Positions 14,576 to 63,890 of a stretch of 64,000 nucleotides of DNA are shown here, in pieces. Every line of letters starts with the position of its first letter. Within the stretch, counting starts at the first letter, position 1. The notes under the pieces are model-generated. The model did not search any database. It had not been told where the DNA came from and saw nothing but the letters and a program-made list of their open reading frames with translations. Source of the stretch: Lactobacillus helsingborgensis. GTDB lineage: Bacteria > Bacillota > Bacilli > Lactobacillales > Lactobacillaceae. Made by a program: the position numbers and the translations under genes. The stretch lies in assembly GCF_000970855.1 (NCBI RefSeq), contig NZ_KQ034046.1, forward strand, positions 1,091,755 to 1,155,754, read 5' to 3'.

Positions 14576-15199
14576 ATGACGACGAAACAAAATACCAAGC
14601 AGTTACAAATTTTACGTTATATTTATGAAACCGTGGCAGATCGCGGCTTTCCACCAACTGTTCGTGAAATTTGCCATGCAGTTGACCTATCGTCAACTTC
14701 TACCGTTCACGGACATTTATCTCGTTTAGAGCGTAAAGGATATTTAATTAAAGATGCAACGAAACCCCGAGCTCTTGAAATAACTGAAGAAGGCAAAAAA
14801 GCTATTGGCATCAAGCCTAATGAAATTCCTGTTATTGGTGATGTGGCTGCCGGTCAACCGATCTTAGCAGTCGAAGATATCGAAGATTATTTTCCTCTGC
14901 CGCCTGATTTAGCTAATGATGCTGGTGACCTCTTCATGTTGAGAGTTCACGGTGAAAGTATGATTAATGCTGGTATTTTAAATGGTGATAATGTCATTGT
15001 CCGCAAGCAAAGTACGGCAATTAACGGTGAGATAGTAGTAGCCATGACTGATGAAAATGAAGCCACCGTCAAACGCTTTTATAAGGAAAAAGGTCATTAT
15101 CGCCTTCAGCCTGAAAATGATACGATGGATCCAATTATCTTGTCCAGTGTACATATCCTGGGTAAAGTTGTTGGTCTTTATCGGAGTTCAATAGTTTAA
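14576..15199 (+). CDS. lexA: LexA repressor
   Basis: SOS-response repressor, 207 residues. Residues 1-70 form the winged-helix DNA-binding domain ([28 protein letters not shown]). The self-cleavage site Ala-Gly is in DVAAGQPI near residue 92, and the catalytic Ser/Lys dyad lies in GESMINAG and in the [17 protein letters not shown] region. RecA filaments trigger cleavage in this family. The gene is preceded by GGAGAT and by its own SOS box, so it is autoregulated. It diverges from ynzC. A second set of LexA boxes in the window is upstream of the yolD-like gene at 60984. Confidence 0.97.
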
Positions 15200-60163: not shown

Positions 60164-60778
60164 TTAATCCTCCCTAACCATTTTACGATATGTATCAATT
60201 ACGCGTTTAACACTTACATGTTCCGCATCGACGATAGCTTTAATGTGATCAACAGCATTAGCCACGGTATCATTTACCACAGCATAATCATAATCCTGCA
60301 TAACTAGAATCTCATGCCGAGCCTGCTTAATTCTGCCCATGATCACATCTTCGGATTCAGTGCCCCGATTTTCCAACCGCAAATGTAATGTATGCAAGTC
60401 AGGCGGTGTCAAAAATATAAAAACACCATCAGGCATCTTCTCACGCACTTTTTGCGCACCGTTGACGTCAATTTCTAGTAAAACATCTTTACCTTCATTA
60501 AGCATCTTCTTTACAGGTGCCAATGGAGTACCGTAAAAATTATTTACATATTGATTATACTCCAAAAGTTCACCTTGGTTGATAGCCTGCTCAAATCGCT
60601 CTTGAGTGACAAAATAATAATCTTTGCCGTTAACTTCACCAGGTCGAGGCTTTCTAGTGGTCATTGACACTGAATACTCAAACGGAAAGACTTTATTTTC
60701 CACAATTGCACTTTTAACGGTACCTTTTCCAACTCCCGAAGGTCCCGAAAGGACAAGTAACAAACCTTTTTCTGCCAT
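60164..60778 (-). CDS. gmk: Guanylate kinase
   Basis: GMP kinase (GMP to GDP), 204 residues. P-loop [17 protein letters not shown] near the N-terminus, the GMP-binding signature [21 protein letters not shown] and the later [13 protein letters not shown] are present. The ATG at 60778 is chosen because GGGGAG lies 6 bases before it. It heads the long minus-strand run and diverges from the yolD-like gene. Confidence 0.97.
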
Positions 60779-60910
60779 GCCATACTCCCCTATCAAAAGC
60801 TATTACGTCTAGTTTGCACTAAAATGAAAATATTTTCAAGTTTTGACAATTTTATGTAATTAACTAGCAAGCAGTATATTGGATTTTACCAAAAATATTT
60901 GATTTAATAC

Positions 60911-60939
60911 TTGTGTTTTTGAACAAATGTTCTTATAAT
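60911..60939 (+). promoter_or_regulatory. Promoter of the yolD-like gene
   Basis: TTGTGT (60911-60916), a 17-base spacer and a perfect TATAAT (60934-60939), 45 bases before the ATG. Confidence 0.85.
60920..60933 (+). promoter_or_regulatory. LexA box 1 of the yolD-like gene
   Basis: TGAACAAATGTTCT has the perfect GAAC-N4-GTTC core of the Gram-positive SOS box. It lies wholly within the spacer between -35 and -10. Confidence 0.88.
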
Positions 60940-60948
60940 ATTGATAGT

Positions 60949-60962
60949 CAAACGAATGTTCG
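60949..60962 (+). promoter_or_regulatory. LexA box 2 of the yolD-like gene
   Basis: CAAACGAATGTTCG matches CGAAC-N4-GTTCG at all but one position. It starts about 3 bases past the expected transcription start, 29 bases (about three helical turns) centre to centre from box 1. Confidence 0.78.
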
Positions 60963-60983
60963 GTCTAAATTGAGGCATTTATA

Positions 60984-61259
60984 ATGAAAAATTCACTAAG
61001 AAAAATATATCATTATTTTTTTGATTATGATGAAGATAGATTAAGCATATACAGTCAGTACAATTATGAAGTTTTGGCTGCCCTCAACAAAGCATTAATG
61101 CAACACTCTTTTGTCTTGATTTCTTATCAAGATGGTCTAAGTGAGATTGGTCAAATTACAGGACGAGTATCTGCGGGAAGGTATGTTTTGCGCTCAGCCA
61201 ATAAAAAAATAATCAAAATAGTTGATCTTGATTCAATCTTTCGTATTGACTTTGCCTAA
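60984..61259 (+). CDS. YolD-like SOS protein
   Basis: A 91-residue protein. Its C-terminal half, HSFVLISYQDGLSEIGQIT then GRYVLRSANKK and IIKIVDLDSIFRID, follows the YolD-like pattern (a helix, then beta strands ending in a D-x-x-x-I motif). YolD proteins are usually encoded beside Y-family DNA polymerases and are LexA-regulated; no polymerase gene is nearby here. The N-terminus (KIYHYFFDYDEDR) is aromatic and charged. The ATG follows TGAGG at 8-base spacing. Two LexA boxes and a strong promoter indicate damage induction. Family assignment is inferred from pattern; function is unknown. Confidence 0.72.
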   Translation: MKNSLRKIYHYFFDYDEDRLSIYSQYNYEVLAALNKALMQHSFVLISYQDGLSEIGQITGRVSAGRYVLRSANKKIIKIVDLDSIFRIDFA

Positions 61260-61284: not shown

Positions 61285-61315
61285 AGTCAAGGATCTTTAT
61301 GATTCTTGGCTTTTT
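61285..61315 (+). terminator. Terminator after the yolD-like gene
   Basis: AGTCAAG (61285-61291) pairs with CTTGGCT (61305-61311) and T5 follows. It overlaps the end of the convergent GNAT gene. Confidence 0.6.
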
Positions 61316-62181
61316 AAATACAATGTTTCGCTTAATATTTTAAAACCAGCTTTTTCATAAATATGAATAGCCGCTTTATTGGTGACGTCAGCATTTAAAG
61401 CAAAAACTCTGCTACCTTCTTTTTGCAAAATTGCAATCATTTTTTTGATAAAAAAAGTACCAAACCCTTGTCCCCGAAATGGCTTATCAATAAACAATCC
61501 GAAAAAGTAATCTTCATTATCACCATGATCAACGGCACAATAGCCAGCAACTTCATTATCTTTTAATAAAATAAAACTTTTAGTATCTTTATCCAACAAG
61601 GAATTTTTGATGTATTTAGTAGAAGTGGCAATGGCATCTCCAAAAGCGTTACTGTGTGCTGTGGCAACTTGAGCAACGTAGTTCGTTGTTAAAGGCTTAA
61701 CGGCTAAAACCTGATTTAATTTGTCAGCCTTTTCAATTGATACTGGCTCTGAGGTTTGCATATAATAATCAGAATCTTCTTTGACCACTGTTAAGTTACA
61801 ATTTGCTAAAAAGTCTGGATTTTTTGCTAAAAAAACTTTTTCTGACACAAATTCCCATTTATGATAACCATATTGCAACATAATTTGTTTGGCATGCGCC
61901 CACATCTTTGTAGCAACATGGTGCCTGCGAAATTCAGGATCAACTACCAAGTGAACTTCTACTTCTTCATTTGGACCGTCATCAGCATATAGCATTGTTA
62001 AACCGATTAACTTTTGTTCCTCATAAGCTAAGACAAATGTTGGCATATCACTAAAATAGTTGTATTTATTGCTTAAATAAATTTTTGAGTAGGTGTTATC
62101 TGCTTTATTTATTTTTTTATTTAAACCAATAGCCTGTTTGGTCTCCTCGTTATTTAAAGTAATTCTTTCAATAACTTTCAT
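61297..62181 (-). CDS. Tandem GNAT-domain protein
   Basis: A 294-residue protein made of two GNAT acetyltransferase folds. The N-terminal half (about 1-150) has VHLVVDPEFRRHHVATKMW; the C-terminal half (about 170-294) has the full acetyl-CoA pyrophosphate loop in FRGQGFGTFFIKK and the typical ending IHIYEKAGFKI. The first domain's acetyl-CoA loop is degenerate (RRHHVATKM rather than R/Q-x-x-G-x-G/A), so only the second is likely to be catalytic. ATG at 62181 follows GAAAGG. It lies 20 bases after recN and may be co-transcribed. The substrate is unknown. Confidence 0.82.
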   Translation of the reverse strand: MKVIERITLNNEETKQAIGLNKKINKADNTYSKIYLSNKYNYFSDMPTFVLAYEEQKLIGLTMLYADDGPNEEVEVHLVVDPEFRRHHVATKMWAHAKQIMLQYGYHKWEFVSEKVFLAKNPDFLANCNLTVVKEDSDYYMQTSEPVSIEKADKLNQVLAVKPLTTNYVAQVATAHSNAFGDAIATSTKYIKNSLLDKDTKSFILLKDNEVAGYCAVDHGDNEDYFFGLFIDKPFRGQGFGTFFIKKMIAILQKEGSRVFALNADVTNKAAIHIYEKAGFKILSETLYLKSQES

Positions 62182-62201
62182 TCTTTTGCCTTTCAATATT
62201 A

Positions 62202-63890
62202 TTATTTCTTTTTTCTTTTAAAGCTCCTCATCAGATCCTTGGCATTTTGTTTAGCTGCCTGCGTCACGTCACTACCAGCCATCATTTCTGCAATTGCAGT
62301 TATTGTTTCTTCCTGAGTTAAAGGCCCGATTTGAGTATAAGTAGCACCATCTTTGACTTTCTTGGCTACCAAATATTTCTGATCTCCCGCAGCTGCTACT
62401 TGGGGTGAATGTGTAATCGCAATTACTTGTTTATTTTCACCAATTGAATGCAATTTTTGACCAATTGCCGCGGAAACGCGACCGGAGACGCCAGTATCAA
62501 TTTCATCAAAAATCATTGTCCCCACTGGTTCAACTTTACTAAAAATTGCCTTCAAAGCCAGAATTAACCGTGATTGCTCTCCGCCAGAGACGATCTTAAC
62601 CAGCGGCATTAATTCTTCACCGGGATTTGGCGCTATTAAGAAGACAATATTATCGGTGCCCTTCTTGGTAAAAGTCTTAGTTTTGGAAAAATCAATACTA
62701 AAACGGGCCTTAGCCATATAAAGATCTGCCAATTCCTGTTTTATTTTCTTTTCCAAAGTGGAAGCGACATTTTTCCTAATTTCATGCAAATTCTGTGCTT
62801 CAACTTTTAATTTATTTTCTAGTTCTCCCAGCTGTTTTTGCAATTTTTCTTCATCAAGTCCGCCAGTTTCATATTGTCCCAGTTCCTTTTGTACTTTGGC
62901 ATAAAATGCAAATACATCCTCTAATGAAGGACCGTATTTTTTCTTTAAACCGTTAAGCAGATCCAGCCTATTTGAAACATACTGAAATCTTTCTTCATCA
63001 AAATCCATATCATCTAAGACATTTGACAGTTCACTACGGGCATCACTAATAGCGAAAACTCCGTCATCAATTGTCTTAGCTATATCTTTAAACTTAGACC
63101 CATACTCAGCCAATTCATTTGCGGCATTTTGCGCTTTTCCAAGTAAAGTTTCAATGCCGTGATCTTCATCATCGTACATTTGCATTAAATAGTTGGCTGT
63201 ATTAACAATTTTCTGATAATTATTTAACTCATCATATTCGTCTTCAAGCTCATCATCTTCATGAGGATCCTTTAAATCAGCTTTAGATAATTCCTCATTT
63301 TGAAAAGATAAAATATCCTGCTTTTGTGCTAGTTCCTGTGCGTCTTGATGTAAATGATTAATTTGAGCAGTTAATTTTTGCCAATTACTAAAATCGGTTT
63401 GATATTGGGCAAGCTCCTGCTTAAATTTGGAAGAAGCGTAATTATCCACCAGATCAATTTGCCTATCCTGATCCATTAAAATTTGTTGATCATTTTGACC
63501 GTGAATATCAACTAAATAATTACCCAGTTCGCGTAAAACATTAATCGTAGTCAGTTGACCGTTGATGCGCACGACATTTCTTCCTTTAGCAGCTAATTCA
63601 CGGCTAATAATCAATTGTTCTTCTGAATCTGGTATACCATATTGTTCACAAAGTTCGGTAATCTTTTTAGTTTCATGGTCCAGTTCAAACAGACCAGTGA
63701 CCACAGCCTTTTTTTCACCACTACGGATCATTTCCTTTTGGCCGCGACCGCCCATCAATAGTGAAACTGCATCAATAATAATTGATTTACCAGCACCAGT
63801 TTCACCAATTAATACAGTCATATTTTCTTGAAAGCGAACCTTCAATGCTTTAATAATGGCAAAATTTTTAATATCCAGTTCAACTAACAT
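62202..63890 (-). CDS. recN: DNA repair ATPase RecN
   Basis: SMC-like double-strand-break repair protein, 562 residues. The N-terminal Walker A VLIGETGAGKSIIIDAV, a central coiled coil (about 150-380), and the C-terminal signature VSGGEQSRLILALKAIF with Walker B MIFDEIDTGVSGR are present. The ATG follows TAGGAGAGG that overlaps the tlyA stop. No SOS box could be checked, because the promoter would be upstream of tlyA, outside the window. Confidence 0.97.
   Translation of the reverse strand: MLVELDIKNFAIIKALKVRFQENMTVLIGETGAGKSIIIDAVSLLMGGRGQKEMIRSGEKKAVVTGLFELDHETKKITELCEQYGIPDSEEQLIISRELAAKGRNVVRINGQLTTINVLRELGNYLVDIHGQNDQQILMDQDRQIDLVDNYASSKFKQELAQYQTDFSNWQKLTAQINHLHQDAQELAQKQDILSFQNEELSKADLKDPHEDDELEDEYDELNNYQKIVNTANYLMQMYDDEDHGIETLLGKAQNAANELAEYGSKFKDIAKTIDDGVFAISDARSELSNVLDDMDFDEERFQYVSNRLDLLNGLKKKYGPSLEDVFAFYAKVQKELGQYETGGLDEEKLQKQLGELENKLKVEAQNLHEIRKNVASTLEKKIKQELADLYMAKARFSIDFSKTKTFTKKGTDNIVFLIAPNPGEELMPLVKIVSGGEQSRLILALKAIFSKVEPVGTMIFDEIDTGVSGRVSAAIGQKLHSIGENKQVIAITHSPQVAAAGDQKYLVAKKVKDGATYTQIGPLTQEETITAIAEMMAGSDVTQAAKQNAKDLMRSFKRKKK

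Follow-up and report, generated by a model that had tools for sequence, protein, structure and literature searches.

The stretch analysed here (the window) comprises 64,000 nucleotides (nt) of the 2.02 megabase genome of Lactobacillus helsingborgensis (assembly GCF_000970855.1, contig NZ_KQ034046.1, positions 1,091,755 to 1,155,754), and the subject of this work is a small gene that stands alone under a promoter overlaid by two LexA-type boxes. This gene, which we call the orphan, comes with a conserved operator and a family of homologs, encodes a barrel homologous by profile comparison to the core of the YolD proteins, lacks the N-terminal arm of those proteins and is retained in genomes where UmuC was not detected. 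An earlier note on the stretch had proposed an open reading frame (ORF) of 91 residues, which is confirmed with its end at 61259, and a GAGG precedes the ATG. The features of the locus are collected in Table 1.

Table 1. Features of the orphan locus, in positions of the window.
Feature	Position	Strand	Basis or remark
Promoter-like site TTGTGT-17-TATAAT (spacer 17 nt)	60911..60939	+	read directly from the sequence
-35 element TTGTGT	60911..60916	+	
-10 element TATAAT	60934..60939	+	
LexA-type box 1, GAACAAATGTTC, perfect GAAC-N4-GTTC, inside the -35/-10 spacer	60921..60932	+	kept in relatives
LexA-type box 2, AAACGAATGTTC, one mismatch, begins near +4 relative to the inferred start	60950..60961	+	kept in relatives
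Orphan gene, 91 codons, ATG start	60984..61259	+	ORF list
Terminator-like stem, then T run	61285..61311	+	1 detected against a shuffle mean of 0.2
gmk (guanylate kinase), divergent neighbour marking the conserved site	60164..60796	-	Pfam; synteny
GNAT gene separating the orphan from recN here	61297..62196		
recN, convergent neighbour of the site	62202..63890	-	ORF list; synteny; name presumed from the translation, without a family call

Direct reading confirms the near-consensus promoter and the perfect box in its spacer that the earlier note had described, and the thresholded mechanical promoter scan did not report this site. The second box, which had been placed at about +3, exists but starts at about +4 and carries one mismatch. 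Start to start the two boxes are 29 nt (about 2.8 turns) apart, and 27–29 nt apart in most relatives, so the proposed spacing of three helical turns is wrong. One perfect LexA-type box in the window is expected by chance (0.62 expected per 64 kilobases (kb); 47 of 100 shuffles hold at least one). The tandem is not expected by chance: the pair over the orphan promoter is the sole one in the window with boxes of at most one mismatch 25–30 nt apart, and such a pair arose in 2/100 mononucleotide shuffles. When the 29-nt tandem pattern was searched in the whole genome with 0–2 mismatches, two loci were found, the orphan (0 mismatches) and a umuC-yolD pair (1 mismatch), a umuC-like gene with similar boxes of the kind that the earlier note had suggested looking for. 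When up to 3 mismatches are allowed, 3 matches appear on the forward and 5 on the reverse strand, against 10 and 6 in the backward-read control, so that 3-mismatch matches are meaningless.

Comparison across related lactobacilli, as the earlier note had suggested, shows that the operator is kept with the gene. A homolog of the orphan is present in 55/75 Lactobacillus genomes searched (many of the genomes counted here and below are close kin and not independent), and 50 of the 55 loci carry two boxes of at most one mismatch each, 25–30 nt apart. In the remaining loci the boxes are 35 nt apart (G001) or fewer than two were found (G072, G036, G052 and G040), G052 being a broken copy and G040 a partial copy without upstream sequence in the box scan; both have internal stops, two at G052:C1:1066373-1066642 and one at G040:C56:3593-3754, and are decaying or partial. 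Outside the genus a profile search located the family in 34/301 Lactobacillaceae genomes, and a wider profile in 140/395 Lactobacillales genomes from 35/80 genera at E values up to 0.01; these remote homologs, with 15–27% identity to far members, were found by protein profile only, and the weakest order-wide matches (E 0.001–0.01), some of which contain internal stops, could be false positives. Box scanning covered the flanks of 33 new loci among the 140 (20 + 13). Two boxes, mostly 27–29 nt apart, are present in 44/44 loci read outside the genus, namely 34/34 of other Lactobacillaceae genera and 10/10 of the families f42, f43 and f45; loci of three further families (four of f3, one of f2 and one of f4) have no boxes in 6/6. 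From its gene content we take f3 to be Streptococcaceae, which are reported to have no LexA (PMC3616900).

Of the 20 Lactobacillus genomes devoid of the orphan, 19 yielded gmk, and next to it neither a homolog nor a box pair lies in any of them (0/19). The gene and its operator thus occur together or not at all; one of these loci (L227) has a lone box with one mismatch. recN lies inside 16 of the 19 loci, in several of them almost abutting gmk; of the other three, two (L220 and L232) are truncated. The LexA-type boxes over the promoter and their conservation in relatives support SOS-type control of the orphan. LexA bound to both boxes would cover the promoter and silence the gene, and DNA damage would release LexA and induce it.

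The earlier note had held that the product fits the YolD-like pattern. This stands for the C-terminal barrel and fails for the rest. The profile search that it had proposed gave no match of the orphan protein to PF08863 or any other Pfam family at E ≤ 1, NCBIfam made no YolD call, and PF08863 was listed for none of 32 family members and found 0 times in the host genome. Plain YolD membership was therefore rejected, with no match over the curated Pfam cut-off and no NCBIfam recognition. A score below that cut-off does not by itself distinguish the orphan from YolD, because the UmuC-linked YolD-like protein of the same genome falls below it too (E 0.019, 15.5 against 27.5 bits). Comparison of profiles shows homology of the orphan barrel to the C-terminal barrel core of YolD: the wider-family profile matches YolD with an hhalign probability of 94% (E 1e-7, 0/100 shuffles) over YolD columns 39–116, scoring 45.2 against 17.7 for the best of 15 unrelated segments.

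In the available literature YolD is treated as the polymerase-tied Gram-positive counterpart of UmuD, a role proposed in PMC6511836. Modelling puts its N-terminal arm into the polymerase, and the arm is the only part common to three small-subunit variants (PMC12926913). The arm motif (DRG..KW...LPEH / LSDH) is present in 24/24 UmuC-linked Lactobacillus YolD proteins and in 1/60 members of the orphan family, where the sole match is a chance PEH. The Lactobacillus YolD set stems from 24/30 umuC loci with rows running stop to stop. For the Bacilli YolD set, 30 loci were fetched and 20 kept for the motif PEH; the arm count of 20/20 in it is no evidence because the set itself was chosen by PEH, and the core comparison is thus with arm-bearing YolD only. 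The net charge of the core barrel is positive in 48/60 orphan family members (zero in 4, negative in 8), as compared to 1/24 Lactobacillus and 0/20 Bacilli YolD proteins. Whole-protein charge follows the same direction (positive in 55/60, 4/24 and 1/20) but is rough, since rows run stop to stop.

Structure prediction, also proposed by the earlier note, gave a barrel like the YolD core. In the AlphaFold2 model, made for the single chain, residues 1 to about 25 are of low confidence and residues 26–91 are predicted to adopt an alpha-beta5 Sm/WYL/YolD-like barrel, that is, the Sm-like SH3 barrel of a WYL domain. Compared with YolD/YqjX (PF08863), the small subunit of the putative YqjW-YqjX-RecA mutasome, the orphan shares the SOS-type operator and the helix with five-strand barrel, but it has no N-terminal arm, its barrel is mostly basic rather than acidic, and it is solitary, with no Y-family polymerase beside it, and kept where UmuC is not found. 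The modelled barrel also resembles the single-stranded DNA (ssDNA)-binding domains of PafBC and DriD. The WYL domain of PafBC binds ssDNA via conserved arginines (PMC11804915), and WYL domains are predicted binders of nucleotides or nucleic-acid fragments (PMC4012209). The orphan differs from the WYL domains of PafBC, DriD, CapW and BrxR in that it is stand-alone, paired arginines are not evident, and no match to PF13280 (WYL) at E ≤ 1 is listed among 32 family members; moreover, the orphan, judging by its operator, would be a damage-response output rather than a sensor. Recurrent basic positions in the family are 41, 60/61, 66, 70 and 78 (57–78% K/R/H).

Our preferred explanation, to which we assign a rough probability of 0.4, is that the orphan represents an unannotated family of the SOS regulon, an arm-less YolD barrel that likely acts on nucleic acid or RecA-ssDNA and not as a polymerase subunit. 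What is induced would be the Sm/WYL-like C-terminal barrel known from YolD proteins, minus the arm that is modelled to plug into the polymerase, and since the arm is absent the orphan is most likely no polymerase subunit. A WYL-like barrel that is free and mostly basic hints, by analogy, at a nucleic-acid ligand such as ssDNA. The barrel would most likely bind nucleic acid made by damage, ssDNA or RecA-ssDNA, and could protect it or tune the activity of RecA and the SOS response. An extension, which we consider doubtful, is that an arm-less basic WYL-like barrel acts on ssDNA or RecA-ssDNA across the order as an SOS effector, damping, protecting or timing the response independently of translesion synthesis. 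If it were true, the damage-sensing fold of PafBC and DriD would here serve as an induced output. The same barrel and the same type of operator, without the arm and kept where UmuC is not found, amount to a separation of the two halves of YolD, which suggests that the barrel has its own job in the SOS response. The possibility of an independent SOS role, raised by the earlier note, thus gains support from the missing arm and from retention where UmuC is not found. A conserved nameless gene would join the probable SOS regulon of lactobacilli and of those other Lactobacillales in which LexA-type boxes are kept.

Several observations weigh against this explanation. The genus-only profile matches YolD more weakly (26.3, 0/150 shuffles) and gives no signal against the UmuC-linked Lactobacillus YolD proteins, where 12/150 and 6/100 shuffles reached the score; it is the wider family that carries the link to YolD. 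In 12/60 family members the barrel is neutral or acidic, and by eye the PafB WYL arginines have no obvious counterpart in the orphan. The barrel is a simple, common fold, headed among its VIA matches by a designed barrel, and so proves no function. Nor is the orphan indispensable, for it changes state 10 times on a gmk tree covering 72 genomes of the genus. Orphan and UmuC co-occur when kinship is ignored (Fisher p 0.015 over 60 well-assembled genomes, 0.026 over 75), and they have the only such tandem operators of the genome, so that there may be a functional link between the two.

Such a link is the content of the first alternative, which we regard as rather unlikely: the orphan would assist or regulate UmuC (or DinB) in trans, its barrel binding the polymerase or competing with the operon YolD as a free second subunit. 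The earlier note, which proposed action in trans on a distant polymerase, had found no Y-family polymerase partner. This is wrong for the genome, which has two Y-family polymerases, one of them paired with a YolD-like gene, and an absence of polymerases was accordingly rejected. On another contig than the orphan a umuC-like gene overlaps a YolD-like gene in an operon-like pair (G000:C3:244828-246547; L045 357-2079), with two boxes 29 nt apart, and the YolD-like partner bears the arm. Gmk, and not a YqjW/UvrX-type polymerase gene, lies beside the orphan. The homology of the cores, the raw co-occurrence and the 29-nt tandem operator common in this genome to the orphan and umuC-yolD only are all consistent with a trans-acting accessory, as are the two boxes 26–31 nt apart at 18/30 umuC loci of the genus and the example of Staphylococcus aureus, where uvrX and a YolD homolog are encoded at separate places yet are both SOS-induced (PMC6511836). 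Against it stands first the absence of the arm, the part common to the three published variants, and for the DinB-like YqjH no YolD link was found in PMC6511836. Three observations weaken action in trans further: the UmuC of this genome is already paired with a YolD-like protein that bears the arm, the orphan is found in genomes with no UmuC match, and purifying selection on it persists there.

UmuC was matched in 50/75 Lactobacillus genomes, counting partial or stop-bearing matches as present (e.g. G005, G011, G015, G031, G040, G043 and G072) and judging absence from one genome per species at an E value of 1e-30. The 60 well-assembled genomes divide into 33 with both genes, 9 with the orphan only (including the broken G052), 8 with UmuC only and 10 with neither, so that a UmuC match is absent in 9/42 genomes bearing the orphan (8/41 without G052). 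On the gmk tree UmuC changes state 13 times, the direction of change not being told, and over independent pairs (72 rows) the association with the orphan is not seen in this underpowered comparison, which weakens an obligate partnership with UmuC. The ratio of nonsynonymous to synonymous substitutions (dN/dS) of the orphan is 0–0.03 between UmuC-less genomes of one clade, with the exception of the pair G022/G023 (0.24 on two differences); the UmuC-less G022 against G058, G059 and G069, which share one sequence, gives dN 0 and dS 0.25, and the UmuC-less G050 against UmuC-bearing kin gives dN/dS 0.04–0.07. Many other pairs have saturated dS, and the genus alignment keeps 47 distinct sequences of 55, omitting G040 and G052 (partial or broken) and G045 (unknown residues). 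By these sequence comparisons the orphan is still under purifying selection where UmuC is not found.

YneA, SosA and SulA are small solitary SOS genes, and the orphan, small and solitary under a double operator and diverged between genera, could be their functional counterpart, an SOS inhibitor of cell division. By eye no YneA/LysM-like ORF of at least 100 codons lies beside lexA in the fetched locus. However, the orphan has no Pfam domain match, LysM included, no membrane segment is evident by eye, the gene is absent from 20/75 genus genomes, its modelled fold is the YolD/Sm-like barrel, and such a barrel is not known to inhibit division; this role is therefore improbable. A little less probable still is that the orphan is an RNA binder of the Hfq type, produced under SOS as a regulator of transcripts. 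Hfq leads the Foldseek matches (E 2.6e-4, TM-score over target 0.81), the alpha-beta5 barrel is common to Hfq/Sm and the orphan, and the barrel is mostly basic. The fold class is, however, also that of WYL and YolD, identity is 12–26% among the matches listed and Pfam Hfq has no match in 32 family members.

Searches of PHROGs and Rfam, and of phages and plasmids for the orphan itself, gave nothing useful, and searching the PDB by sequence gave sub-threshold matches only, including Like-Sm 4xq3 and Sm D2. The Listeria protein Sif (lmo0946, 75 residues), a conserved protein of undefined role (PMC10794523), was compared by description only and dropped as a relative. No description of the orphan and no expression data for it were found in the literature searched on Lactobacillus and Enterococcus SOS regulons and on YolD. 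As 13 LexA target operons have been predicted in Lactobacillaceae (PMC3616900), the orphan may already be among them as an unnamed gene.

A number of further observations concern the genome and its relatives. Four more perfect GAAC-N4-GTTC sites occur in the genome (G000:C2:367714, 549632 and 909892; C3:55052), by eye none at an obvious SOS promoter or clear SOS gene, and that at 909892 lies about 0.8 kb ahead of a parE-like gene; lexA (window 14497 and 14594-15187) carries one box with one mismatch. In the f3 loci L197-L200, proteins of about 105–110 residues match the family profile without LexA boxes (hhalign 96 with the family and 76 with YolD), beside genes that by eye look partly like bioY, rimM and trmD. 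Five plasmid matches were obtained, of which two were read, one with annotation and one without; on the Enterococcus faecalis plasmid NZ_CP138654.1 (L236 3638-5634) a Y-family polymerase gene is followed by a YolD-like 'hypothetical' gene with arm and core.

The site of the orphan, which the earlier note had taken to be conserved between gmk and recN, is indeed conserved, with the qualification that in this genome a GNAT gene intervenes before recN. gmk adjoins the orphan in 53/55 loci of the genus and 17/17 loci of other genera, and recN is within reach in 46/55 and 16/17, the loci extending about 1.5 kb, which limits the former count of recN. The ten loci of f42, f43 and f45 have different neighbours, by eye resembling DegV, V-ATPase subunits and cardiolipin synthase. 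Among named loci, the closest proteins (73–79% identity) include those of L. kimbladii and L. laiwuensis.
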